DNA from: Thermanaeromonas sp. | GTDB taxonomy: Bacteria > Bacillota > DSM-521 > Neomoorellales > Neomoorellaceae | NCBI RefSeq assembly: GCF_021890735.1 | Contig: NZ_JAKKUR010000005.1 | Span: 1-64,000, forward strand | Reading direction: 5' to 3' | DNA length: 64,000 nt | In this document: positions 31,145 to 46,937 of the stretch, piece after piece | Numbering within the stretch: position 1 is the stretch's first letter | Layout: each line of letters opens with the position of its first letter | Notes under the pieces: generated by a model | What the model was told of the DNA's origin: nothing | Database searches by the model: none | What the model saw: only the letters and a program-made list of their open reading frames with translations | Translations under genes and position numbers: made by a program

Positions 31145-32824
31145 GTGCCCGAGCTCCGTAACCTAGCAACTCACATTTTAACCCTCCTTAACCACGGTCT
31201 AATATGGGTAAACAAAGCAGGTATAATAATGGAATTTAACCCGCAAGCTCTAGCCCTCCTCGGCTTGCCCGGCAAAGACCTACGCGGGCGAAAGCTGACC
31301 GAGGTTTTTCCGGCCTCGCGCCTTTCTGAAGCCCTGACTACAGGAAAACCTTTGATAGGTACCAGGGTCCAGGGGATAAGGGGGCCTATACTGGTAAGTT
31401 ACCTTCCTCTACTAGATGAAGAAGGTAACGCATTGGTTGTTTTCGAGCAGTGCGATTCCAGCTACGAGCTTGCTGAAATTTACGAAGCGCTCCTGGCCGA
31501 GCTACCCTTGGGTTTAGCGGTGGTAGATAAAGAAGGGATTTTAATATTTATCAATAAATATTATGCTTCACTGGTGGGGTGGGAAGAGAAGAGGGCTACA
31601 GGAAGGCCAGCAGAGCACGTTTTACCTTTCTCAAAGTTATCTCAAGTCGTTTCTACGGGCCGCCCCTACTTGAATCCCGAAATAGATTTTGAGGGCCACA
31701 AGCTTTGCCTGGCCGAGATACCCTTAAAGAATAAGGGCGGGGAAATATTAGGCGGAGTAAGCCGGGTGCTCCCCCAGGAGGCTATTGTAGAGGGCAACTT
31801 TAAAGAGTTTTACCATCAATTTAAAATAATGGAAAATAAGCTCCTCCTATACAAAGATGAACTGGAATTCTTCCAAGAAAACATATCCCCCTGGGCAGCC
31901 ATACGGGGAGTGAGCCCGCAAATAAAGGAGCTTAAGAAATTAGCTGCCCGGGTAGCTCAGGGAGATGCCAACATTCTTCTGTTGGGCGAAAGCGGTACCG
32001 GAAAAGATCTTTTGGCGCGCGCCATCCATCAGGCTAGCAGGCGAAGGAAAGAACCTTTTATTAAGATTAATTGTGCAGCCATACCGGAGAATCTCCTGGA
32101 AGCAGAACTTTTCGGGTACGAAGAAGGAGCTTTTACAGGAGCAGCTCGGGGTGGTAAGCCAGGCAAATTTGAACTTGCCGATGGAGGTACTGTATTCTTA
32201 GACGAAATAGGCGACCTGCCCTTAAGTATGCAACCCAAACTATTACGGGTCCTTCAAGAGCGCTCCTTTGAACGGGTGGGAGGCAGAAAAACTTTAAATG
32301 TAGACGTAAGGATCATTGCAGCTACAAATAAAGATTTGGTCTCCCTTGTAAATGAAGGTAAATTTCGTTTAGATCTTTATTACCGCCTGGCCGTTATTAC
32401 CATTCATATCCCTCCCCTCCGGGAACGACCTGTAGATATCGAACCCATTTGCCGTAGCCTTATCCATAAATTTAATATCAAGTATGGACTAGAAGTTCAG
32501 GGTCTAAGCCCTGAAGTTAAGGAACTTTTTGAGCAATATTCCTGGCCGGGCAATATCCGTGAACTGGAAAACGTGCTGGAATATGCCTTTAATTTCCTGG
32601 ACCCGGAAGATAAGCTCATATTACCCAGGCACCTACCGCCAACTTTCCCTCCATCCAGTTCTTCCGGAGGGTTAGAGCTAAAAAAGGTAGTTGCCTTGGC
32701 TGAACAAGAAGCTATCAAGAAAGCCCTCGCAGCCGCTAAAGGTAACAAACAGGAGGCCGCGCGCCTTCTGGGAATACACCCTTCCGGCCTATATCAGAAG
32801 CTTAAGAAATACAATATAGAGTGA
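31145..32824 (+). CDS. PAS-domain sigma-54-dependent activator (bEBP)
   Basis: A 559-aa enhancer-binding protein. Two PAS-like sensor domains fill about residues 1-110 and 112-215. The AAA+ domain has Walker A GESGTGKD (281-288), the sigma-54 contact loop GAFTGA (328-333) and Walker [13 protein letters not shown] near 347. A Fis-type helix-turn-helix ends it ([19 protein letters not shown]). PAS input suggests a redox, gas or small-molecule signal. The start is GTG 31145. It is followed 6 bp later by a molybdopterin oxidoreductase gene, and a sigma-54 promoter with paired upstream palindromes lies at 35033-35194, so the next operon is its probable target. Confidence 0.92.
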
Positions 32825-32829
32825 GCTGA

Positions 32830-35025
32830 GTGGTTATGTATAATTTAGAATTCCGGTCTTTTCTAGAAGAGTTGCTTCACGATGAACGAACCGTAGACAG
32901 ATGGGTATACACAACTTGCGGTTTCTGCGGAACCGGGTGCGGACTATATCTGGGCGTTAAAAAGGACCGGGTGGTATCCGTAAAACCCAACCCCTTCTCT
33001 TCCGTAAATCAAGGACAGCTCTGTCTTAAGGGTATGTACGCCTGGAAGGCTTTAGAGCACCCCGAACGGGCTACCCGCCCGCTCTTAAGGCTGGGGGACA
33101 AAATGGTCCCTGTAACATGGCAAAGAGCGTATGAAATCCTGGCGTATAAAATACGGGAAGCCTTGGCCCAGGGCGGCCCGGAGGCTGTAGGTATCTACCA
33201 TGGAGGGCAGCTCACCCTAGAGGAATATTATGCCTTGCATAAACTGGCCAAAGGCGTCCTGGGCACCCCCAATATAGATGCTAATACCCGACTTTGTATG
33301 GCTTCCACGTCCATGGGATATATTCGTTCCTTCGGCATCGATGCTCCACCGGGATGTTACGAAGATCTGGACGCTGCGGAGGTTATCTTCATCTTGGGGG
33401 CCAACCCGGCAGAAATGCATCCTCAAATCTGGCAGCGCATCCTGCGCAACCGCCAGCGCAAAGGCGTTAAACTTATAGTGGCCGACCCCCGCCTTACTTT
33501 GCCGGCCAGTGTGGCTGATTTGCATTTAAAGCTGCGCTGCGGCACTAATATACCACTACTTTATTCCATTATTTACGTGCTTATCCAAGAAAACCTGCTG
33601 GACTGGGGTTTCATCACCAGGGCTACGGTTGGGTTTGAGGAGCTAAAGGCAGCAGCTCAGGATTTTCCACCTGAAGTAGCCCAGGAATTAACCGGTGTCC
33701 CGGCTAAAGATATCATCAAGGCAGCCCGTGAGTTTGGAAAAGCGGCGTCAGCCGTCACGCTATTTTGTCAAGGAGTAAACCAGAGCCTTCAAGCCGTGGA
33801 TACGGTTACCCTCATCAACTCCCTACATCTCATAACCGGGAAGATAGGCCGGGCGGGTTGTGCACCCCTTTCCTTGACCGGCCAGGCTTCATCTTTGAGC
33901 ATGCGGGAGATAGGAGGAGTGGGAAGCCTGCCGGGGTTGCGGAACCCCGAGAACCCTAAACACCGCTATGAGGTATCATCCTTCTGGGGGGTAGAGGAGG
34001 AGATATTGCCCCGGTATACTAACGATATCCGTACCATGCTGGAACTTATCGAGGATGGACGCCTGCGCGTACTTTGGGTAATAGGCACCAACCCTGTCGT
34101 ATCTTTACCAGACCAACAGTATGTACGTAAGCAGTTGGAGCGGGTATTCTTAGTGGTACAAGACATATTTTATCCCTTGGAAACTGCATACTACGCTGAC
34201 CTGTTCCTTCCTGCTGCCCAGTGGGGAGAAAAGACAGGGACCATAACCAATTCTGAGCGCAGGGTTAACCTTGTGCAGAAAGCGGTCCAGCCGCCAGGAG
34301 AGGCCAAAGACGATCTAACCGTCATATGTCAAGTAGCCCGGCATTTGGGAGCAGGAAGGCTTTTTCCCTGGGCAGAACCGGAAGAAGCATTCAACGAACT
34401 TAAGGAGTTGACGCGCCACCGCCCCAACGACCTCACAGGTATAACCTATAACCGCCTTAAAGCGGAAGGAGGTATCCAGTGGCCCTGTCCGGAGGGAGCT
34501 GAGACCGGTACTGCCCGATTGTATACTGACGGCTTTTTCCCCACGGACCCCGCCGTATCTCAGGCTTACGGCGAGTTTAACGCTAACCCCGGCCGGGCTA
34601 AGCTCTGGGCCGTTCCTTACCGCCCGCCATCCTCCCCTAGAGACCAAGACTACCCCTTCTGGTTAAACACGGGCCGCGTTATCGAGCATTACCATACTCG
34701 TACCAAGACCAAGCGCATCCCCGAGTTAAATATTTTGATCCCCCAACCCTTTGTAGAGATCAACCCCCTGGATGCAGCGGCCCTTGGAATCAAAGAAGGA
34801 GAGTGGGTCAAGGTGATCTCCCGGCAGGGCTGGGTAAAGGTGCGGTCCCGCATTACCCCGGTAGTGTCTAGAGGAGAAGTGTTTCTACCCTTCCATTTCG
34901 GAGATTTAGATCCTCGGGAAAAACAGGAACCCCAGGCAGCCAACCATCTAACATCGTGGTTGGTAGATCCCATCTCCCGCCAGCCGTTAACAAAAGTAGG
35001 CGCCTGCCGTATAGAAAAATTATAG
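32830..35025 (+). CDS. Cytoplasmic molybdopterin oxidoreductase (FdhA/NasA-like)
   Basis: A 731-aa DMSO-reductase-superfamily enzyme without a Tat signal. An N-terminal [4Fe-4S] motif CGFCGTGCGLYLG...GQLCLKG (about residues 35-75) is followed by NTRLCMAS, where C156 is the probable molybdenum ligand; no in-frame TGA codon suggests selenocysteine. PPGCYEDLDAAEVIFILGANPAEMHP matches the assimilatory nitrate reductase and formate dehydrogenase branch. The C-terminal MGD domain has RVIEHYHTRTKT near 617. Formate dehydrogenase or nitrate reductase activity cannot be told apart. It is co-transcribed with the bEBP (GTG 32830 or ATG 32836). There are no obvious FdhB or Nas partners. Confidence 0.82.
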   Translation: MVMYNLEFRSFLEELLHDERTVDRWVYTTCGFCGTGCGLYLGVKKDRVVSVKPNPFSSVNQGQLCLKGMYAWKALEHPERATRPLLRLGDKMVPVTWQRAYEILAYKIREALAQGGPEAVGIYHGGQLTLEEYYALHKLAKGVLGTPNIDANTRLCMASTSMGYIRSFGIDAPPGCYEDLDAAEVIFILGANPAEMHPQIWQRILRNRQRKGVKLIVADPRLTLPASVADLHLKLRCGTNIPLLYSIIYVLIQENLLDWGFITRATVGFEELKAAAQDFPPEVAQELTGVPAKDIIKAAREFGKAASAVTLFCQGVNQSLQAVDTVTLINSLHLITGKIGRAGCAPLSLTGQASSLSMREIGGVGSLPGLRNPENPKHRYEVSSFWGVEEEILPRYTNDIRTMLELIEDGRLRVLWVIGTNPVVSLPDQQYVRKQLERVFLVVQDIFYPLETAYYADLFLPAAQWGEKTGTITNSERRVNLVQKAVQPPGEAKDDLTVICQVARHLGAGRLFPWAEPEEAFNELKELTRHRPNDLTGITYNRLKAEGGIQWPCPEGAETGTARLYTDGFFPTDPAVSQAYGEFNANPGRAKLWAVPYRPPSSPRDQDYPFWLNTGRVIEHYHTRTKTKRIPELNILIPQPFVEINPLDAAALGIKEGEWVKVISRQGWVKVRSRITPVVSRGEVFLPFHFGDLDPREKQEPQAANHLTSWLVDPISRQPLTKVGACRIEKL

Positions 35026-35032
35026 ACCCCGA

Positions 35033-35069
35033 TTCTAAAAACTTAGAAACTCATTCTATGATTTTAGAG
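35033..35069 (+). promoter_or_regulatory. Paired enhancer-like palindromes (UAS)
   Basis: TTCTAAAAACTTAGAA (35033-35048) and TTCTATGATTTTAGAG (35054-35069) are two related 16-bp palindromes. Their centres are 21 bp apart, two helical turns. They lie about 130 and 150 bp upstream of the -12 element of a sigma-54 promoter, the usual place for a bEBP enhancer. Confidence 0.65.
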
Positions 35070-35150
35070 AGGGGACTACCGGAATATTTTTCACAATCTC
35101 TAAAACGTCAGCCTAAAGTCCTTGATAATGCTTACAATCTCAAGCTCCAG

Positions 35151-35179
35151 AAGCCTGTTTCCGGGGCTTTTATTTTTTT
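35151..35179 (+). terminator. Terminator after the cytoplasmic molybdoenzyme gene
   Basis: AAGCCT (35151-35156) pairs with GGGGCTT (35163-35169) and is followed by TTATTTTTTT. It ends where the sigma-54 -24 element begins, so readthrough from upstream is limited. Confidence 0.6.
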
Positions 35180-35194
35180 GGCACGAAACTTGCT
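35179..35194 (+). promoter_or_regulatory. Sigma-54 promoter of the Tat-molybdoenzyme operon
   Basis: TGGCAC-GAAAC-TTGCT is an exact -24/-12 consensus (TGGCAC-N5-TTGCW). GG at 35180-35181 and GC at 35192-35193 have the required spacing. Initiation near 35205 gives a leader of about 80 nt that begins with the small hairpin ATGCT-ccggaa-AGCAT (35202-35217). Confidence 0.88.
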
Positions 35195-35273
35195 AAAGAG
35201 TATGCTCCGGAAAGCATGAGTACATCTTCACATGTAAAACCCTGTTATATTCCTCTTCCAAGAAAGGAGTGGG

Positions 35274-35285
35274 GTGACCGGTCAC
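35274..35285 (+). promoter_or_regulatory. 12-bp perfect palindrome between RBS and start codon
   Basis: GTGACCGGTCAC lies between AAAGGAGTGG and ATG 35287. It could be an operator, an RNA fold that affects initiation, or chance. Confidence 0.35.
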
Positions 35286-35286
35286 A

Positions 35287-37851
35287 ATGAAAAAACAAGG
35301 TTTTAAGCTTACACGGCGCCAATTTTTAAAAGCTTCGGCAGTAGCCACGGCTCTCGCTGGTGCAGCAGCCTCGCCCGCCTACTTTATGCCTGCATCTGGT
35401 GCTCAGGAAGAAAAGAGCCCTCAGGTTAAATTTGTGCGCTCCGTTTGTTCGCCCAACTGTACAGGAGCATGCGGGATTAAAGCCATGGTAGTTAACGGCC
35501 AGATCAAAGCCCTGTTCCCTACCGACGACTATCCCGAACCTCTATACGGACCGCGAGGTTGCTTAAGGGGACTAAGCTACACCAACCTCATTTACGGACC
35601 CGACCGCCTAAAGCGTCCTTTGATCAGGACAGGCCCCCGGGGAAGTGGCCAATTTAGGGAGGCATCCTGGGAAGAAGCGTTGGACTATGTTGCATCTCAC
35701 CTTAAAGAGATTGCTGCCAAGTACGGTCCGGAAAGCATAGGCTTTAGTTTCCAGGTAGGCGGAACGGGGCACGTCCAAAAAGGGGCCTGGATCGCCCTTT
35801 CTACCCTGGCCGGCTGGACCCTCTTTCATCCCTATGATAAAAACGGGGACCTCCCTATGTTCTGGCCCCAGACCTTTGGGGTTCAGACAGAAGAACTGGA
35901 GCCCTTGGAATGGCTGAACTCAAAGTATATAGCGGTATTTGGCTCCAACATCCTTGTTACCAGGCTTGTCGACTCCGAATTCCTCATTCAAGCTCGAAAC
36001 CGCGGCGCGAAGTTTGTCGTTTTCGATCCCAACTACTGCGTTACTGCAGCCAAAGCAGATGAGTGGGTACAGTTAAAACCTGGCAGCGATGCTGCCCTGG
36101 CCTTAGGTATAGCCCGGATTATTATTGAGGAAAAGTTGTACGATGAAGAATTTATCAAAACCTATACAGATCTGCCTTTACTCGTGCGGCTAGATACCAA
36201 ACGCCGCCTGCGGGCAGGCGAAGTGAAGGGCTTAGAACCTCCCCAGGACCTCCCACCCTACAGGGAAGCGTTTGTAGCCTATAACGGAAATTTTCTGGTC
36301 GTGCATCCAGAAAATTTGGGTCTTCCGCGTGACGTCATGCTGGAAGGCGAAAGGGAGGTAGAATTAAAAGACGGGCAAAAGGTCAAGGTTAAACCGATCT
36401 TCCAGTTATTAAAAGAACACCTGAAGACTTACACGCTGGAATACGTAGAGAAGGAAACCGGGGTAGCCAAGGAAGTTGTAGAAAGGCTTGCCCGGGAAAT
36501 GGCTACCACCAAGCCCTTGCATGTAATTTATGGGGCCAGCAACTATCAATGGTATCACGGAGATCTAAAAGGTAGGGCCTTGGCCTTGTTACCCGTTCTT
36601 ACGGGGAACCTGGGCCGTCCCGGTGCTGGCATCTCCACTTATGCCGGACAATACAGGATACGTTTCCATGTGAAGGAGTGGTGGTTCCCCAAGCCTCCCC
36701 GCTGGACACCCTGGCTTTATTTCCTACATGGTCCTACTAAAACCATGACCGCTCCTTACCCTCAAAACGGTTTTAAAGCCCTTATCTTCGGTTGGGGGAA
36801 TCCCTTCGACCAGCATAATATGGCTAACCGGCTAAGGGAAAAGGCTGAAAATGGAGATCTGGAGCTGATTGTGGCTCTAGATTACCAGATGACCACAAGC
36901 TGCCGCTACAGCGACGTGGTGCTTCCGGTGGCCACCTGGTACGAAAAGGTGGAGCTGGTTACCACCCCCTTGCACCCCTATATGCAACTCCAGCAACCAG
37001 CCATTGAACCGTTATTTGAGTCCCGGTCCGAACTTTGGATTGCCCGGGAAATTGCTAAAAGGCTGGACCCCCAGTTTGAAGCGCACTTTTTCCCGGGGTT
37101 AGAAGAAAGGGAAGCAGCAGAGAAAGTTATTGAGCTGCTGCTTAAGACGGGCGGCCCTCCTGTGGAAGGCATCACTCTAGAACGGCTTAAAAAGGGGCCT
37201 GTCCGTTTGAAATCGGAGGTTCCAGGTAACCGGCAAATACCTTTCTATGAGCAGGTCAATTTCCGTAAGCCCTTTCCTCCCGTAAGTCTCCCGGCATCTT
37301 TAGAAGCTACCGCCAGATTTGTAAAAAGCGGCCGTATCGAATTTTACCGGGAGGAAGAAGGGTTTTTATCCCAGGGCGAAGCTCTGCCTGTCCATAAACC
37401 TCCCTTTGAGGAAAGTGAATACGTTTTAAACCCCGAAGCTAAGGAAAAATATCAGTTCGTATTCCTTACCCGCAATTCTCTGTACCGCGTTCATTCCACC
37501 CACTCTAACAATATATGGATGAACGAACTGCAGGATAATAGACCTAAGATATTCCTAAATCCCGAGGATGCTGCCCAAAAAGGAATTAAAAATGGAGACT
37601 TAATAGAAGCCTATAACGACCGGGGACGGGTAAGAGGATGGGCTGTATTAGACCCCGGCTTAAGCAGAAAAGTGGTGGTCTTTGAACAGGGCTGGTGGAG
37701 CCAGTATCTTAAAGGCGACTCCTACAACTCTCTCACTTATCCCTTTATTAAGCCTACCCACGAAATTTACTTTGTCCCCGGCATATGGGCACCCAATACG
37801 GCCTGGAACGAAACCCTGTGCGATGTACGAAAGGTGGCGGAAGAGAAATGA
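35287..37851 (+). CDS. Tat-exported molybdopterin oxidoreductase, type II DMSO-reductase-like
   Basis: An 854-aa enzyme. The twin-arginine signal TRRQFLKASAVATALAG (about residues 9-25) predicts export. A [4Fe-4S] motif CSPNCTGACG (about 54-63) with a fourth cysteine in GPRGCLRG follows. NGDLPMFWPQTFG has an Asp (D188) at the place of the molybdenum ligand in the NarG/EbdA/SerA/ClrA type II group, and WLNSKYIAVFGSNILVTR fits that group. The substrate is unknown: sulfur oxyanion, chlorate or selenate, and organic substrates are all possible. It is the first gene of a sigma-54 operon with an Fe-S and an NrfD-type subunit. The stop overlaps the next start by 4 bp (ATGA). Confidence 0.85.
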   Translation: MKKQGFKLTRRQFLKASAVATALAGAAASPAYFMPASGAQEEKSPQVKFVRSVCSPNCTGACGIKAMVVNGQIKALFPTDDYPEPLYGPRGCLRGLSYTNLIYGPDRLKRPLIRTGPRGSGQFREASWEEALDYVASHLKEIAAKYGPESIGFSFQVGGTGHVQKGAWIALSTLAGWTLFHPYDKNGDLPMFWPQTFGVQTEELEPLEWLNSKYIAVFGSNILVTRLVDSEFLIQARNRGAKFVVFDPNYCVTAAKADEWVQLKPGSDAALALGIARIIIEEKLYDEEFIKTYTDLPLLVRLDTKRRLRAGEVKGLEPPQDLPPYREAFVAYNGNFLVVHPENLGLPRDVMLEGEREVELKDGQKVKVKPIFQLLKEHLKTYTLEYVEKETGVAKEVVERLAREMATTKPLHVIYGASNYQWYHGDLKGRALALLPVLTGNLGRPGAGISTYAGQYRIRFHVKEWWFPKPPRWTPWLYFLHGPTKTMTAPYPQNGFKALIFGWGNPFDQHNMANRLREKAENGDLELIVALDYQMTTSCRYSDVVLPVATWYEKVELVTTPLHPYMQLQQPAIEPLFESRSELWIAREIAKRLDPQFEAHFFPGLEEREAAEKVIELLLKTGGPPVEGITLERLKKGPVRLKSEVPGNRQIPFYEQVNFRKPFPPVSLPASLEATARFVKSGRIEFYREEEGFLSQGEALPVHKPPFEESEYVLNPEAKEKYQFVFLTRNSLYRVHSTHSNNIWMNELQDNRPKIFLNPEDAAQKGIKNGDLIEAYNDRGRVRGWAVLDPGLSRKVVVFEQGWWSQYLKGDSYNSLTYPFIKPTHEIYFVPGIWAPNTAWNETLCDVRKVAEEK

Positions 37852-38534
37852 AACTGGGTATGGTTATCGACCTGGACCGTTGTATAGGATGCCGTACGTG
37901 TATGGTCGTTTGTAAATCCCACAATGCGCAGCCCCCGGGTACCTGGTGGAACCGGGTGTTTACCCCTGGAAGCCCGGAACATCAAGTACCCGCCCTCCAA
38001 AAGGGGGAACCTCAGATGTATTTTTTACCTGTAGCTTGCCAGATGTGCGAAAACCCTCCCTGCCAGAAGGTCTGCCCCGTGGGAGCAACCTACACCGATG
38101 ACCAAGGCAGGGTGGAGGTGGACTTAGAGCGCTGTATAGGTTGCCGTTATTGCCTGGCCGCCTGCCCCTACCAAGTACGCCAGTTTAATTGGGAAGATCC
38201 TAAAAAGGCCAAAGGCAAAGCAGGGTATGTAGAAGGATACGAATACGGCTATCCCTTTCCTCACAGGGATAAAAACGGGCGCTTAGTTTATATACCCAAC
38301 CGGCCTAAGGGAGTAGTGGAAAAATGTACTTTCTGCGTACAATACACAGACAACGGCGAAAAACCCATCTGCGTTCAAGCCTGCCCTGCCAGGGCCCGCT
38401 TTTTTGGGGATTTAGATGACCCCCATTCGGAAATAAATGAAATACTCCGCCAGCGCCAGGCTTTCCGCCTGAAGGAGGAACTGGGTACACGGCCTAAAGT
38501 GTTTTATTTACCCCCTACAAGCCCTCGCAAGTGA
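37848..38534 (+). CDS. Four-cluster ferredoxin-like electron-transfer subunit (DmsB/PsrB-like)
   Basis: A 228-aa protein with four [4Fe-4S] binding sets: CIGCRTCMVVC (12-22), CQMCENPPCQKVC (64-76), CIGCRYCLAAC (97-107) and CTFCVQ...CVQAC (about 162-183). This matches DmsB/PsrB-type subunits. It has no signal and would ride out with the Tat catalytic subunit. The start ATG 37848 overlaps the upstream stop. A longer open frame to 37785 is inside the upstream gene and has no RBS. Type II catalytic subunits usually pair with a longer NarH-like subunit, so this pairing is unusual. Confidence 0.88.
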   Translation: MKLGMVIDLDRCIGCRTCMVVCKSHNAQPPGTWWNRVFTPGSPEHQVPALQKGEPQMYFLPVACQMCENPPCQKVCPVGATYTDDQGRVEVDLERCIGCRYCLAACPYQVRQFNWEDPKKAKGKAGYVEGYEYGYPFPHRDKNGRLVYIPNRPKGVVEKCTFCVQYTDNGEKPICVQACPARARFFGDLDDPHSEINEILRQRQAFRLKEELGTRPKVFYLPPTSPRK

Positions 38535-38628
38535 GAAAGTACTTTAGCCTTAATCCTCAATCCAAAGTTAGCTAACTTGAACAAGCTAAGAATAAAACTT
38601 CTCGAGTAAAGTAGAGGTGAATTCAAAC

Positions 38629-39927
38629 GTGCATAGGAAAAATCTTGCTTTAATTTTAGGCTTCTTCCTTTTCTTGGTCAGCCTGTCAGCCTGGGCCTAT
38701 CAATTAAAAGCAGGCCTTATTATAACCCATATGCGTAATCCCTTTAGCTGGGGTTTATACATTGCTACCTTCGCCTTTTTCGTTGGCATCGCTGCGGGCG
38801 GGTTGATAGTATCCTCCGCTGTGTATTTATTTAATATTGCGGCTCTAAAACCCTTTACGCGTGTAGCTTCTTTATCCGCCTTTGCCAGTATCCTGGCAGC
38901 TGCAATCATCATACTCCCTGATTTGGGAAGGGTAGATAAAATTTACCTTTTGCTGTTGCACCCTAACTTCCGTTCACCTCTGATATGGGATGTCCTCGTA
39001 GTATCTTCTTACATTGTTCTCACCTTTTTAAGCGTATATTTCCAGCTCCTTCCCGATTGGAAAAGGGAAGGCCGGAGTTTTCTTAATCGCTGGACCCAGA
39101 GGCTCTCCCCTGAGGAAGTAGAAAAAATATCCATTACCTGGAGCAGGCGTATAGCCTTTGTTGGATTGCCCATAGCCATACTTATTCATACCATCACTGC
39201 CCTCATCTTCGCCACCCAGGTCTCCCGCGGGTGGTGGTATACGACAATCCTGCCTGCCGACTTCATCTCCGTAGCCGTGGCCTCCGGGGCAGCTTTATGC
39301 CTTTTGATAGCCCTCTCAAGCATGGGGGAGGAAGGGTTCTCCCGGTACGGTCCCGCCTTTGCTATTTTAGCCCGTATTGCCGGTTGTGCCCTTGTGGTGC
39401 ACTTATTCTTGGTAGCCACGGATCTGGTGATCCATTGGTGGTGGGCTAACCCGGATGAACTAGAGCTTTTATCCCTTCTTTTCCGCCGCTACGGGGTCCT
39501 CTACGCTTTAGAGATGGTGTTGACCGTCTTCAGCATGGTATATTTCCTGTCTTCCCGGGGTACAACTTCGCTCCGCACACTCCTTGTGGGAAGCCTTATT
39601 TTGCTGGTAGCCGTTTTCATCCACCGCCTTAATCTCCTTTTCCCGGCGTTTAACCACTTCCCCTTAAGCCTTGCCGTACCGGGGGCGGCAAATGAGCTCT
39701 GGAGCTATCCTGTGGCTTTAGGTGAATTTAGGCCAGGAGAACCTACCTTCGTAAGTTCGTGGCCTTACGTGCCTAGCCTGGGGGAAATTTTTGTTGACCT
39801 ACTACCCTTTGCATTAGCCATTATAATCTGCTCCTGGATGATAAGCTCTTACAGCATACTGCCTTCTATTCGCAAGGGAAAGGATAGAACCCTGTCTTCC
39901 TCCTCCACCCATAGCCTTGACTTTTAA
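38629..39927 (+). CDS. NrfD/PsrC-type quinone-interacting membrane subunit
   Basis: A 432-aa integral membrane protein with about ten hydrophobic segments, starting with NLALILGFFLFLVSLSAWAY. The pattern matches the NrfD/PsrC/DmsC-like anchor family, which exchanges electrons with menaquinol on the outer side. GTG 38629 follows AGAGGTGA; an in-frame GTG at 38617 overlaps that site. It completes a catalytic-FeS-anchor trio with the two preceding genes. Direction of electron flow cannot be read. No clear terminator follows. Confidence 0.85.
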   Translation: MHRKNLALILGFFLFLVSLSAWAYQLKAGLIITHMRNPFSWGLYIATFAFFVGIAAGGLIVSSAVYLFNIAALKPFTRVASLSAFASILAAAIIILPDLGRVDKIYLLLLHPNFRSPLIWDVLVVSSYIVLTFLSVYFQLLPDWKREGRSFLNRWTQRLSPEEVEKISITWSRRIAFVGLPIAILIHTITALIFATQVSRGWWYTTILPADFISVAVASGAALCLLIALSSMGEEGFSRYGPAFAILARIAGCALVVHLFLVATDLVIHWWWANPDELELLSLLFRRYGVLYALEMVLTVFSMVYFLSSRGTTSLRTLLVGSLILLVAVFIHRLNLLFPAFNHFPLSLAVPGAANELWSYPVALGEFRPGEPTFVSSWPYVPSLGEIFVDLLPFALAIIICSWMISSYSILPSIRKGKDRTLSSSSTHSLDF

Positions 39928-40478: not shown

Positions 40479-40667
40479 TTATTGGGGAAGGGCATGTTCT
40501 TTTTATCATCCAATCCATAGTCACACTAACATCCTTTTGCTATTTTTAATTGTAAGAAGGAAATGCCTTAAATTCGTCTAACAAGCGCTTTTATGGAACT
40601 ACAACTAGCTGTTTATCGCCCCGACAAGAGTGGGGTTATAACTACTATCATACAAGGAGGGTCCAGG

Positions 40668-41909
40668 GTGAAAAGAGGCATTCTTTGTTACCTGGCCCAA
40701 GATGAAAAGGAGGAGGAAATCTCCTACAACCTAGAAGAGCTTAAGGAACTTGCCCGGAACATCGACATAGAGGTTAAAGATTACCTCCTTCAGCGCCGGC
40801 GTCCTGACCCTAATTATCTTTTAGGGGAAGGAAAGGTTCAGGAACTGAAAGAAAAAGTGGAAAGGGAAAGCATAGAAGCCGTTATTTTCAATCTGGAACT
40901 TTCTCCCCGCCAGATTTTAAGGCTCGAAGAAAGATTAGGTCAAGTAGAGATATGGGATCGCACGCAGGTCATCCTAGAGATTTTCCGCCACCGCGCCCGT
41001 TCCCGAGAGGGAAAGATTCAAGTGGAGCTTGCGCGCCTAACTTATCTTTACCCTCGTATGCTGGGCCTGGGAGAAGTTCTTTCCCGCCTGGGAGGGGGCA
41101 TTGGAACACGGGGTCCAGGGGAAACTAAATTGGAGGTGCTCCGCCGTTCTGTGCGCAGGCGTATTTACCACCTGCGCCAGGAACTGGAAGATATACGCCG
41201 GAATCGCGAAGTCCTGCGGCAGCAACGGATCAAAAACGCCATTCCTGTAGTAGCTCTGGTAGGCTACACTAATGCAGGTAAGTCCACGCTCCTCAATGCC
41301 CTTTCTTTAAGTGAAAATAAAGTCTTAGCAGAGGACCGGCTTTTTGCCACCCTCGACCCCGTAAGCAGGCGCATCCGGCTTCCTTCCGGTCGCCAGGTGC
41401 TTCTCATCGATACCGTTGGTTTTATTCAACATATGCCGGCCAAGCTAAAGGAAGCTTTTAAAGCCACCTTAGAAGAGCTATCCTCTGCGGATCTTCTGCT
41501 CCATGTTATTGATCTTACCAGCCCTTATATGGACCGTCAGGTAGCCGCAGTAGAAAACATCCTAAGGGAACTGGGCCTTATTCACCGCCCTCTCCTTAAA
41601 GTTTACAATAAGGTAGACAGGTTTACCGGGATCATCCCCGTGGACGGCTTGGCTATTTCAGCCCTCCACGGTACTAATCTCCCCCTCCTTTTAAACCGCT
41701 TAGAGGAAAAACTTTTCCCTGTAGAAGAGAGGACCTTGTGGATACCCTTTACCCACCTCGGGGAATTATTCAGGGCAAGAAATAGGGTAGAAGTTGTGGA
41801 GGAAATATATACGCCCCAAGGAGTAAGGGTGCTCTTACGAGGCCGTCCCCAAGATCTCAGAGTTTTGGAAGCCCGGATAAGGAAGAAGGAGGAAAATGTA
41901 AATAAATAG
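40668..41909 (+). CDS. hflX: GTPase HflX
   Basis: A 413-aa ribosome-associated GTPase. The N-terminal HflX domain has LEELKELARNIDIE, RRRPDPNYLLGEGKV and ELSPRQILRLEERL. The linker GGGIGTRGPGETKLE is the family signature. The G domain has G1 GYTNAGKST (about residues 202-210), DRLFATLDPVSR, G3 DTVGFIQHMP and G4 NKVD. HflX rescues or splits stalled ribosomes after heat stress in other bacteria. GTG 40668 follows AAGGAGGG; an in-frame ATG at 40593 has no RBS and is not part of the HflX fold. Confidence 0.92.
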   Translation: MKRGILCYLAQDEKEEEISYNLEELKELARNIDIEVKDYLLQRRRPDPNYLLGEGKVQELKEKVERESIEAVIFNLELSPRQILRLEERLGQVEIWDRTQVILEIFRHRARSREGKIQVELARLTYLYPRMLGLGEVLSRLGGGIGTRGPGETKLEVLRRSVRRRIYHLRQELEDIRRNREVLRQQRIKNAIPVVALVGYTNAGKSTLLNALSLSENKVLAEDRLFATLDPVSRRIRLPSGRQVLLIDTVGFIQHMPAKLKEAFKATLEELSSADLLLHVIDLTSPYMDRQVAAVENILRELGLIHRPLLKVYNKVDRFTGIIPVDGLAISALHGTNLPLLLNRLEEKLFPVEERTLWIPFTHLGELFRARNRVEVVEEIYTPQGVRVLLRGRPQDLRVLEARIRKKEENVNK

Positions 41910-41977
41910 CGGCAATAAATTAGCTTGACCAGGTCAACAAACCGCTAAAAAGAAAATATCAACATCGAGCGGGGAAG

Positions 41978-42184
41978 GTGCGACGGGAGCTGGTCTTAGC
42001 GTGTATGGATAGCCCGCTACTCCTCGTGGCCACGGTAATGGTCGCACCGCACCCATTTGCCGACCGAATCAAAGCCAGGCCGGATGTGGAGGTAATCGAG
42101 ATCGGGCCGCATAACCGCAACCGTTTGCCCGCGGATCTGGCAAACAAACTAATGAAACTTAAGTCTTCCCAAGGGGAAGAGTAG
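41978..42184 (+). pseudogene. C-terminal remnant of a THEP1-like nucleoside triphosphatase
   Basis: A 68-codon frame. VMVAPHPFADRIKARPDVEVIEIG followed by NRNRLPADLANKL looks like the last third of THEP1-type NTPases, which end with a peptide of the form PFVDEIKRRPDVELIEVT and NRDELPEEIL. The P-loop part is missing and no frame upstream supplies it. The start GTG 41978 has a GGGGAAG site, so a short product could still be made. The rest of 41910-42290 shows no gene. Confidence 0.45.
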
Positions 42185-42275: not shown

Positions 42276-42298
42276 AAAAAATAATTCCCATTAGGGAA
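42276..42298 (-). terminator. Terminator of the reverse gyrase gene
   Basis: On the minus strand TTCCC-taat-GGGAA overlaps the stop codon and is followed by TTATTTTTT (plus-strand 42276-42284). Confidence 0.55.
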
Positions 42299-45200
42299 GG
42301 ATTTCTCTAACCTTATAAAGTTTCCTCAGCACCTCCTGGTAATCCTCTTTTCCTTCCGCAATAAGATCCATGGTCCTTTCTATTTCTCGGGTTAAAGCAG
42401 TGTCAGTATACTCGGGGAAGTTCTTCCTCAGATACCGGTATACCTTAAACCCCAAACGGGTAGGGTAAAGGCTCCCCCGCCGGACCGCCAGGTAACGCCG
42501 GTTAAGAAGGGTGGCTATGATTTCCGCATAGGTAGAGGGTCGACCTATGCCCTGCCGCTTCATCTCCTGGATTAGAGTACCTTCAGTATAAAGTTCTACT
42601 ACTGGTATTTCCTGGTATGCCTTGTGGGTTAGCCGTGCTTTAGCATCAAGGCGGCTTACAGAAAAGCTCGGCCACATAAGGGCAAACCCGGGTGCGAGTT
42701 CATCGCACACCAGCTCGGTTTCCCAAGTATAGCTAGGCACCCGAAAGCGTACCCTGGCCTTGCGCACCCGCGCTGGCGCCATCTGCGACGCTATAAACCG
42801 GCGGAAGATAAGCCCGTAAAGGTCAATAGCCTTTTCCTGGCTCAGGTTCACCAGCCCTGCCCCCACCATCCACCTAAGCTCATCTTCCGTTAGAGGACGT
42901 GTCGGCCTTATGGCCTCGTGCGCCCCTTCCTTCCCCCAACTGCGCGGATGAAAAAGTTTTTCCCCAAACTGCTGGACAATGAAGGGCTTAGCTACAAGGA
43001 AGCGGCCTGTTTCCGAGACCCGGGTGGAATCGGTTCGGTGGTAGGTGATATATCCCGACTCAAAAAGTTCCTGGAGAAGCTTCATTGTAACCGGTGCGGA
43101 CAGTCTAAGCCGGTGGAATGCTTCGGTAAGAATGGTATCCGTAGTAAAGGGTGGGAGGGGTGGCCGTTCCTCTTCGCTTGTCTCTAATATCTCCCATGTA
43201 ACCTGATCGAGTTCAGCAAAAATTTTTTGGCCTAGTTTTAGGTCCGGTACTTCCAGAATCAAGTTGGCACATCCCAAAGAAAAGGTTATGCGCGCCTTCT
43301 TCTCTCGCCTCTTTTCCATGCAAGCTATCACCCACCCGAGTACCGGAGTTTGAACCCTTCCGGCAGAAAGGTGAGGGTTGCCAAATTCCTGCCAAAGGCG
43401 CCGGGATAGGCAGAAACCCACCCAGCGATCGAGTACCCGACGGGTGAGTTGGGCCTGGACACGGTGCAGGTTGATCTGCCCCGGGGTTTCTAGGGCTTTA
43501 CAGAAGGCGGCGGGTGTTATTTCATGGAATTCCAGGCGAAAGATCCGGGGATTAAACGGGCGTAAGGAAAGATAAAGATCGTAAGCTATTTTTTCTCCTT
43601 CCGCGTCAGGGTCGCTGGCCACAAAAACTTCGTCTGCTTCAAAGGCTAAGTGCTGCAACCCTTGTAATACTTCTTGTTTATCCCATACTGTCCCTTCTGG
43701 ATAACGGTTCGCTTCCTCAGGATCCACAAACTCCTCTCCTGTCTCCCGAGAGATCTTTATAGTATCAAAGACCGGCAAAAAGCGTTGTCCATCGGTGAGG
43801 ACGCCAAAAAAACCTTGTTGCCTGCTTAAGTTAAAGACATGCCCCAGGCAAGACGTGATTATGAGGTACCGGTCACCTGCCGGTATTTCGTAGGCCACTG
43901 CTCCTTTCACCCTCCGGATCCCGGGTTTTCCCCAAAAAGACGCGATGGTACGGGCCTTGTGAGGGGACTCCACCACTACCAGTGCGGTATGAGGACCTCC
44001 TTTTACCGCAAGTTCCTTATCCCTGACCCGCCGCCTATCCTCTTCTATGCCATGCATAATTTCTTCCAGCTCGACCTTCTGTAAAGGTATAAATTCTATT
44101 TCCCCCGGACTAAAGGCGCGCAACCGCTTTTTTAAGCTGCCCAGCATCCGGCGTTCAGTACATAAAGTAATGGCTAACCCCCGCGTAAGTCCTGACGCGG
44201 TAAGGCGTGAGACCCTTCCCGAGGCTTGTAAGTACGTGGCGGCATCTCCTAAAGCCAGATAAAGCCTCCCCTCTTCCTGGTATACACTTATATCCTCTGC
44301 CGCTTTCACCTTCTCCCAAAAAGAGGGCTCTTTAAATTTTGCCTCCAGTAAAGGAAGGAGGGCTTGTATCCTTTTGTCTAGCGCAGGGTAGCGAGAGACC
44401 TCTTCAGCAGGAAGGCTTAAGTATGGCCTTAAATACCGAAGCTCCCGTAAAATTGTACGCTGCTCATCCGTTGTGAAAAAGGGAAAAAGGGCCAGCAAGA
44501 GGCCGTGCAGGGCCCCGGGAGAAGGGGATAGTTCCAGAGGAAGAAGATGGGCGGGTACCCCTACGAAGATTACATACTTAAGTACTTGGGGAAGATCTAG
44601 TCCCCGAACCAGAGGGTTCGTGGGATGGGCTAACCCTACTGCAACCTTAATTGACCCTTCCAGCAGTCTTGCTACCAGGTCTTGCGGGGCAAGTTCAAGG
44701 TAACTTTCAGCTCTAATTCCCCTGGCCTTCAAGTACATAGTGGCTTCCCTTACCCCTTCTCTACCTTCCTTTGCACTGACCAACACCAATCCCCCGGCAC
44801 CCAACTTTTCGATCAACTCGGCACATCGAGCCAGCGCAGAAGCAAAATCATTTACTTCTTCGTAGCAATCCAGCACCCGACGCTGGGTACTTACCGCCCG
44901 CTGAATAGAAAAACCCATAAGTCTCTGAAAGAGGCGCACCCGCTTGTTCCGCGGCTTTAAGGTGGCGGAGGACAGGATGAGGAGCCTTTCCGGCTTCTTT
45001 CTCATCTGTTTGAGATTCTCTTCTGGTGAACGCAAGGCCTTGTCTACCTCTTCCGCGGAGTAGCCCAAGAAATGAAAAAGGCTATCTATCTGGCGGGAAT
45101 TTTTAAGGAGGGCGTCAACGTCATCTATAAAAACAAAAGTGATGGGATGAACTGCAAGCTCACGCCAATGGCGATAAAAAAATTGAGTAGTTACCACCAG

Positions 45201-45728
45201 GACGTCATAGTTACCCTCCATAAGCTCTTTCTTTTCCTTAGCCTTACCAGTGAAACCTAAGATTTTCCTGGGATAACCGGCTCGGCCACTTAATCGGGCA
45301 AGCCTATCTACTATCTGCCAAACTAAAAGACGGGTAGGGGAGAGGATAAGGGATTTTTTCTCGTTATAAAGGCAAAGTACCAACCCCAAGGTAGTTTTAC
45401 CTACACCAGGAGGAGCGATAATGGCGAAGGACTCGTCAAGAAAGAAACGCTTAGCCCACAAACGCTGCAAGGGAGAAAGGGAAAGCCCGGTTGCCCGTTG
45501 AAAAAACTCGGCAAAATTTTCAAGGCGTTCTTCGGCCCGGCAGAAAGGAGAAAGTCCCTGTAACTTATCTTTTCTTCGGAGATCACCACAAAGAGTAGCC
45601 TGCGAAAGACCTTTTCCTTCCTGTGGCAGGCAATTAGCGCAAGGGAGCCCTGCCGCCAAACGCTCATCCGTCACGCTCCCGCCGCAGTTAGGACAACCAC
45701 GTGCCAGAAGGAAAAGCTCCAAGCTCAT
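42291..45728 (-). CDS. rgy: Reverse gyrase
   Basis: An 1145-aa fusion of a helicase-like half and a type IA topoisomerase. An N-terminal zinc finger has C12, C15, C30 and C33. The helicase half has Walker A APPGVGKTT (105-113), DEAD-box-like IDDVDALL and motif III LILSSATLKPR. The topoisomerase half starts near residue 582 (VVVESPHKA), has acidic VASDPDAEGEKIA, and the catalytic Tyr896 in YITYHRTDSTR. Reverse gyrase puts positive supercoils in DNA and is found essentially only in thermophiles and hyperthermophiles. All key motifs are present, so it looks functional. It is a single gene on the opposite strand to its neighbours. Confidence 0.96.
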   Translation of the reverse strand: MSLELFLLARGCPNCGGSVTDERLAAGLPCANCLPQEGKGLSQATLCGDLRRKDKLQGLSPFCRAEERLENFAEFFQRATGLSLSPLQRLWAKRFFLDESFAIIAPPGVGKTTLGLVLCLYNEKKSLILSPTRLLVWQIVDRLARLSGRAGYPRKILGFTGKAKEKKELMEGNYDVLVVTTQFFYRHWRELAVHPITFVFIDDVDALLKNSRQIDSLFHFLGYSAEEVDKALRSPEENLKQMRKKPERLLILSSATLKPRNKRVRLFQRLMGFSIQRAVSTQRRVLDCYEEVNDFASALARCAELIEKLGAGGLVLVSAKEGREGVREATMYLKARGIRAESYLELAPQDLVARLLEGSIKVAVGLAHPTNPLVRGLDLPQVLKYVIFVGVPAHLLPLELSPSPGALHGLLLALFPFFTTDEQRTILRELRYLRPYLSLPAEEVSRYPALDKRIQALLPLLEAKFKEPSFWEKVKAAEDISVYQEEGRLYLALGDAATYLQASGRVSRLTASGLTRGLAITLCTERRMLGSLKKRLRAFSPGEIEFIPLQKVELEEIMHGIEEDRRRVRDKELAVKGGPHTALVVVESPHKARTIASFWGKPGIRRVKGAVAYEIPAGDRYLIITSCLGHVFNLSRQQGFFGVLTDGQRFLPVFDTIKISRETGEEFVDPEEANRYPEGTVWDKQEVLQGLQHLAFEADEVFVASDPDAEGEKIAYDLYLSLRPFNPRIFRLEFHEITPAAFCKALETPGQINLHRVQAQLTRRVLDRWVGFCLSRRLWQEFGNPHLSAGRVQTPVLGWVIACMEKRREKKARITFSLGCANLILEVPDLKLGQKIFAELDQVTWEILETSEEERPPLPPFTTDTILTEAFHRLRLSAPVTMKLLQELFESGYITYHRTDSTRVSETGRFLVAKPFIVQQFGEKLFHPRSWGKEGAHEAIRPTRPLTEDELRWMVGAGLVNLSQEKAIDLYGLIFRRFIASQMAPARVRKARVRFRVPSYTWETELVCDELAPGFALMWPSFSVSRLDAKARLTHKAYQEIPVVELYTEGTLIQEMKRQGIGRPSTYAEIIATLLNRRYLAVRRGSLYPTRLGFKVYRYLRKNFPEYTDTALTREIERTMDLIAEGKEDYQEVLRKLYKVREILP

Positions 45729-45782
45729 CTTTCACCTCGCTTTGGGGGTGTCTTAAGCAAGGGTAGGATGTTTAAAAAGGAG

Positions 45783-45819
45783 AAAATTTAAGGCCTCCCG
45801 TTATTATCGAGAGGCCTTA
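45783..45819 (-). terminator. Terminator of the tRNA-Arg/tRNA-Lys unit
   Basis: TAAGGCCTC (45789-45797) pairs with GAGGCCTTA (45811-45819). On the minus strand the hairpin is followed by AAATTTTC. The stem is close to that behind the tRNA-Thr fragment (399-428). Confidence 0.65.
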
Positions 45820-45827
45820 TAACTACT

Positions 45828-45903
<76 letters not shown>

Positions 45904-45913
45904 ACATAAAACA

Positions 45914-45990
45914 TGGCGCGCCCGGCAGGACTCGAACCTGCGACCTCCGGACTCGGATTCCGTTACTCTATCCACCTGAGCTACGGGCGC
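45914..45990 (-). tRNA. tRNA-Arg(CCG)
   Basis: A 77-nt cloverleaf on the minus strand with encoded CCA. Acceptor GCGCCCG pairs with CGGGCGC, discriminator G. The anticodon loop ATCCGAG gives CCG (reads CGG, Arg). The T-arm is GCAGG-TTCGAGT-CCTGC. The first anticodon-stem pair is an A-G mismatch. It is upstream of tRNA-Lys behind a full consensus promoter. Confidence 0.92.
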
Positions 45991-46007: not shown

Positions 46008-46036
46008 ATTATATCTAAAGAATTTTTGAGAGTCAA
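46008..46036 (-). promoter_or_regulatory. Promoter of the tRNA-Arg/tRNA-Lys unit
   Basis: On the minus strand TTGACT (46036-46031), 17 bp, TATAAT (46013-46008). This lies 18 bp upstream of tRNA-Arg. Confidence 0.8.
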
Positions 46037-46322: not shown

Positions 46323-46937
46323 ATGGAAAAACTACCCTTTAATCTAGATGTTCCTTTAAAACTGGCCAGGGAAAAGCTTAGATCTATTGCTCCTTCTACC
46401 ATAGCTCAAAACAAAAAGGTAACCTGGGATGAAGCAACGAAGGAGTTTTCTTGCCCGTTCCTCAACCTGGTCTACCGGATAACTTATCCCGACGGAAAAG
46501 TTTATGGCGAAGAAGAAATAGACCCGCGTGTTACAGTCCTATTCCTGCACTATTTAACAAGTCCCGGTTCTTCCCTTACCGGGCAGTGGATCACTTTCAA
46601 AGAATTACCCGGCGGAGCCCTTTACTCAACACCCTTTTACTACCGTGCCGTTTTCCCCCTGATCCGCGCGTTTACGCCCCATCTGGACAGTCTAGTTTCT
46701 GCAGGGGCCTCCTTAGGCGGGACAAAAGGTCACATAGGTCACGCAAGCGTCATCCTCTATCCTTTTCCCTTGGTACCCGTATATTTAAGTTTATGGGCCG
46801 GAGATGAGGAGGTCCCTCCGGGAGGCACTATTCTTTTTGATGCCTCCGTCCCTGAACACTTATCCACGGAAGACTGCGCAGTACTCGCAGAATACCTGGT
46901 TCGCCGGTTAAAGCTGGCTTATGGACAAAAGCTTTAA
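46323..46937 (+). CDS. DUF3786-family protein
   Basis: A 204-aa protein. WDEATKEFSCPFLNLVYRITYPDGKV and TVLFLHYLTSPGSSLTGQWITFKELPGG match the DUF3786 family as I know it from anaerobes with corrinoid or Wood-Ljungdahl metabolism. VPVYLSLWAGDEEVPPGGTILFD follows. Biochemical role unknown. ATG 46323 has GGAAGGGG upstream and TATAAT at 46279-46284. The next gene starts 19 bp downstream, so the two form a unit. Confidence 0.75.
   Translation: MEKLPFNLDVPLKLAREKLRSIAPSTIAQNKKVTWDEATKEFSCPFLNLVYRITYPDGKVYGEEEIDPRVTVLFLHYLTSPGSSLTGQWITFKELPGGALYSTPFYYRAVFPLIRAFTPHLDSLVSAGASLGGTKGHIGHASVILYPFPLVPVYLSLWAGDEEVPPGGTILFDASVPEHLSTEDCAVLAEYLVRRLKLAYGQKL

Follow-up and report, generated by a model that had tools for sequence, protein, structure and literature searches.

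How a reverse gyrase came to reside in a Thermanaeromonas genome, and what its presence means for the growth temperature of the host, are the questions raised by this locus. Reverse gyrase is a DNA-overwinding enzyme and the marker gene of hyperthermophily, and its spread among bacteria bears on the argument over ancestral growth temperature. The stretch of 64,000 nucleotides analysed here (the window) carries a reverse gyrase gene (rgy) at positions 42291-45728 of the minus strand. The genome that contains it (G000) is a draft of 2.13 Mb in 142 contigs, 99.6% complete and with a contamination estimate of 0.02%. It encodes Spo0A, and acetyl-CoA synthase (CdhC/AcsB) is encoded inside the window, so that its earlier description as a spore-forming, acetogen-type genome was a fair one. 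A congener, G001, is available as a single contig of 3.33 Mb, and its median identity to G000 is 85.6% over 78 orthologues (those above 60% identity). A 16S rRNA search came back empty for G000 and for most of the genomes searched, and a literature search found no paper that names reverse gyrase together with Thermanaeromonas.

The reverse gyrase and its closest relatives

The ORF starts with ATG, has no internal stops and encodes 1145 residues. The protein matched the TIGR01054 (rgy) profile with 1154 bits (cut-off, 471.7 bits) from position 6 to 1168 of the 1172 profile positions, and the complete reverse gyrase of the original prediction corresponds exactly to this ORF. A helicase-like N-terminal half and a type IA topoisomerase C-terminal half are joined in a single polypeptide, the combination that defines the family, and the Pfam domains follow each other in the expected order (zf_Rg, residues 7-40; DEAD, 87-260; Toprim, 583-737; Topoisom_bac, 752-1134). 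When the window protein was aligned with sequences from Ammonifex, Aquificales, Caldicellulosiruptor-like Bacillota and Thermus, the cysteines of the N-terminal zinc finger (C12, C15, C30 and C33), the ATPase motifs (Walker A K111/T112, DDVD 202-205, SAT 254-256 and QxxGR Q501/S503/G504/R505), the Toprim acidic residues (E587 and D706/D708/E710), and the catalytic Y896 within GYITYHRTDST together with R898 were all invariant. All motifs had been predicted to be intact, and this holds for the catalytic ones, including Tyr896, but not for the second zinc finger, in the topoisomerase half (residues about 660-685), whose cysteines are gone. They are likewise missing from the Ammonifex and the Aquificales sequences; this finger varies among bacterial reverse gyrases, and hence is not a defining feature. 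Comparison with Ammonifex revealed purifying selection on rgy (dN 0.14; dS about 2.5, i.e., saturated). Judged from its sequence, the reverse gyrase of G000 is an intact and probably functional enzyme, and ATP-dependent positive supercoiling would be expected of it. An AlphaFold model built from a six-row alignment was of low quality (pLDDT 57, pTM 0.32).

The closest known enzymes are the reverse gyrases of Ammonifex thiophilus SR (L008) and of a second genome of the same genus (G404, probably A. degensii), with 77% identity to the window protein over the full length. They share with it the APPGVGKTT and VESPHKA variants, the loss of the second zinc finger and a similar stretch joining the two halves. 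Their genes differ from the window gene in third-position composition (GC3 about 0.71-0.72, vs 0.52) and in their surroundings, since their neighbours are ffh and an aminotransferase gene and include no tRNA, whereas the window gene lies beside tRNA-Lys. Among solved structures, the reverse gyrases of Thermotoga maritima and Archaeoglobus fulgidus are the nearest, and the former (PDB 4ddt, 7fsf) is the best match (E 4e-191). The T. maritima enzyme has the same two-lobe architecture and the same catalytic residues, but it is more distant than the Ammonifex enzymes, retains the second zinc finger, and has a latch of 67 residues (PMC10233626), where the alignment points to a stretch of about 95 residues in the window enzyme. 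The reverse gyrase of Thermus plasmids (pTT27 type) is also complete and is carried by a mobile replicon of thermophilic bacteria; unlike the window enzyme it is plasmid-borne, and with about 39% identity it falls on a separate deep branch of the tree.

The tRNA-Lys locus in the window and in related genomes

As had been noted before, rgy is opposite in strand to its neighbours, hflX on the left (40593-41909, plus strand; syntenic in G006) and a gene for a DUF3786 protein on the right (46323-46937, plus strand; syntenic in most relatives examined). The adjoining gene remnant and tRNA genes were also recovered. The remnant, on the plus strand at about 41976-42184, corresponds to the C-terminal part only of an NTPase_1 (THEP1-type) gene (PF03266, E 2e-5), and the tRNA genes, both conserved and on the minus strand, are those for tRNA-Lys (CTT; 45828-45903), with its 3′ end toward rgy, and its partner tRNA-Arg (CCG; 45914-45990). 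This pair has a sigma-70-like promoter motif (TTGACT-17-TATAAT; 46008-46036, minus strand) and an intrinsic terminator with a 12-bp stem and a T-rich tail (45789-45819, minus strand), which is located between tRNA-Lys and rgy, so that rgy lies about 100 bp past the tRNA-Lys 3′ end and beyond the terminator of the tRNA unit. A putative ribosome binding site, GAGGTGAA, was recognized by eye just ahead of the rgy start codon (approximately 45732-45739, minus strand).

In G006, which belongs to another genus of the same family, the locus is collinear and has no rgy; its order is molybdopterin oxidoreductase operon, hflX, NTPase remnant, tRNA-Lys, tRNA-Arg, DUF3786, thiL and dinG. Between hflX and tRNA-Lys, G006 has what looks by eye like a more decayed version of the window's NTPase remnant (L045 13765-13870) and, within L045 13765-14770, a HicBA pair as well as a short C-terminal fragment, integrase-like by eye and with no Pfam hit. 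The tRNA-Lys 3′ end borders on a two-ORF tyrosine integrase (L047 15293-16618) in G003. In G001 it is followed by phage genes for lysis, baseplate and tail (L043 10209-20000), and hflX no longer adjoins the slot. The integrase, phage and HicBA content of these relatives indicates that the 3′ side of tRNA-Lys(CTT) is an integration slot in the family, and the tRNA neighbourhood pointed out in the original prediction was therefore a relevant hint. In the window, the tRNA-Lys 3′ end has no att-like direct repeat beside rgy at up to 3 mismatches, local alignment for such a repeat did no better than shuffles, and no integrase remnant was found beside the gene; for this reason, entry of rgy by integration would be plausible at most.

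Two further features of these loci were observed. In G001 a transposase-like ORF (L043 8697-9986; ISL3-type, by eye) separates the DUF3786 gene from the tRNA pair. In the window, positions 31145-39927 encode a sigma-54 activator and then a pair of molybdopterin oxidoreductases, one iron-sulfur subunit and one membrane subunit, and G006 keeps the same order of the sigma-54 activator, both molybdopterin oxidoreductases and the membrane protein.

Origin of the reverse gyrase gene

A survey of Moorella relatives restricted rgy to G000, which was the only carrier among 22 genomes of the host class (the sample includes one congener and 16 other family members). The gene was present in 2 of 113 genomes of the Ammonifex class, both of the genus Ammonifex, and in nine of 398 genomes drawn evenly from the phylum, namely G000, A. 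thiophilus (G332) and seven members of one genus (g137), which we take to be Caldicellulosiruptor. When 84,980 species genomes were scanned for exact peptide patterns, a method that misses distant relatives, the matches were A. thiophilus (77% identity) and Aquificales (37-40%). Among the plasmids searched, reverse gyrase was found on those of Thermus only, and the viral contigs and phages had none, giving only topoisomerase-I-like matches over the C-terminal half. In the phylogenetic tree, the reverse gyrases of G000 and of the two Ammonifex genomes, which belong to another class, formed one clade with 100/100 support, far from the remaining sequences.

The G000 and G404 reverse gyrases are 77.5% identical, whereas the 97 reciprocal best hits in the sampled parts of both genomes have a median identity of 53.8%; rgy ranks third of the 97 and leads the 33 proteins longer than 400 aa. 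The two Ammonifex copies of rgy are 93.3% identical, near the median of 94.4% (n = 9) within that genus, so that it is not a slow-evolving gene; from these identity figures, we estimate that about 50% identity between G000 and Ammonifex would be expected under vertical descent. The excess identity to Ammonifex, taken together with the normal rate and the distribution, argues for horizontal transfer, and a horizontal acquisition of rgy by the G000 lineage is strongly supported. Transfers of reverse gyrase among bacteria are well documented (PMC6878951), and the window case is another instance, with a well-resolved insertion site. The transfer proposed in the original prediction thus finds support in the phylogenetic distribution, the identity excess and the rgy-free collinear locus, but base composition, which had been put forward as a check, was of no help: the GC3 of rgy is 0.516, and the host mean is 0.526, the codon usage is host-like, and no compositional signature of transfer was found in either measure. 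Third codon positions of the window rgy and its Ammonifex counterparts are 46% identical, with dS near saturation, and this divergence, together with the host-like composition, indicates that the acquisition was not recent. The Kimura distance from rgy to Ammonifex (0.27) is greater than the G000-G001 median (0.16), so that, if rates were similar, the common ancestor of the copies predates the split between G000 and G001; in that case rgy came from a donor related to Ammonifex, or it entered earlier and was then lost from G001.

We consider it likely, with a probability of about 85%, that rgy was acquired long ago by horizontal transfer from the Ammonifex stem lineage, or from an unsampled relative of Ammonifex, and was inserted downstream of tRNA-Lys. 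The gene would have entered just 3′ of tRNA-Lys, in the slot used by integrative elements in the family, and would afterwards have taken on the base composition of the host. The direction of the transfer, an integrase-mediated entry and a benefit at high temperature are components of this account that we infer. A transfer in the reverse direction, with rgy first in the Moorella-type lineage and then passed to Ammonifex, is quite improbable: the three-member clade is unrooted, three sequences do not decide the direction, and each copy has ameliorated to its own genome, but both Ammonifex genomes carry rgy at one shared locus (the ffh side), and the host class has it in one genome only. Very unlikely is vertical descent from an ancestor shared by the Moorella-type and Ammonifex classes, followed by loss in all the other sampled lineages. 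Losses would be cheap in moderate thermophiles, the composition of rgy fits the host, and a loss is conceivable in G001, where the slot is filled by phage genes and hflX no longer adjoins it; however, this descent would require losses across all other lineages of two classes, the G006 site is collinear and free of rgy, and the identity to Ammonifex is far above the orthologue median although the rate of rgy within Ammonifex is normal. That an Ammonifex-like contig fragment was joined into the 142-contig draft by chimeric assembly or contamination is hardly credible, because rgy has the GC3 and codon usage of the host and not the 0.71 GC3 of Ammonifex, is 77% and not over 95% identical to the Ammonifex genes, and has both flanks syntenic with family members, in a genome with almost no estimated contamination.

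Growth temperature of the host

In a large survey, the growth optimum, where known, was above 65 °C in 89% of the reverse-gyrase species, and a few moderate thermophiles with the enzyme exist as exceptions (PMC6878951). A Thermanaeromonas MAG with dsrAB comes from sediment heated to 80 °C, and G000 also has dsrA, as do its relatives, so that there is no discriminating match to this MAG (PMC9826295). With unmatched ORFs, the IVYWREL estimate was about 83 °C for G000 and 74 °C for G001, but the 78 paired orthologues showed no difference in IVYWREL (p 0.57) and only a weak one in charged-polar bias (p 0.03). Proteome composition, therefore, does not convincingly separate G000 from the rgy-free G001. 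The high-temperature growth suggested originally is reasonable by the general association of the enzyme, and on such general grounds only would it be likely for G000, but the comparison of the two proteomes does not add to it. That an integrative element delivered rgy through the tRNA-Lys slot to a lineage that grows at or above 80 °C, with a congener that does not, seems unlikely. As the two congeners differ in rgy, and an rgy-free form of the locus is preserved in a related genus, G000 and G001 form a clean pair for asking whether the gain of rgy raises the upper growth limit. Two neighbouring dsrA/dsrB-like pairs, the second with a score under the dsrA cut-off, are located in G000 at C87:22318-29612, and such pairs are also present in G001, G003 and G006.
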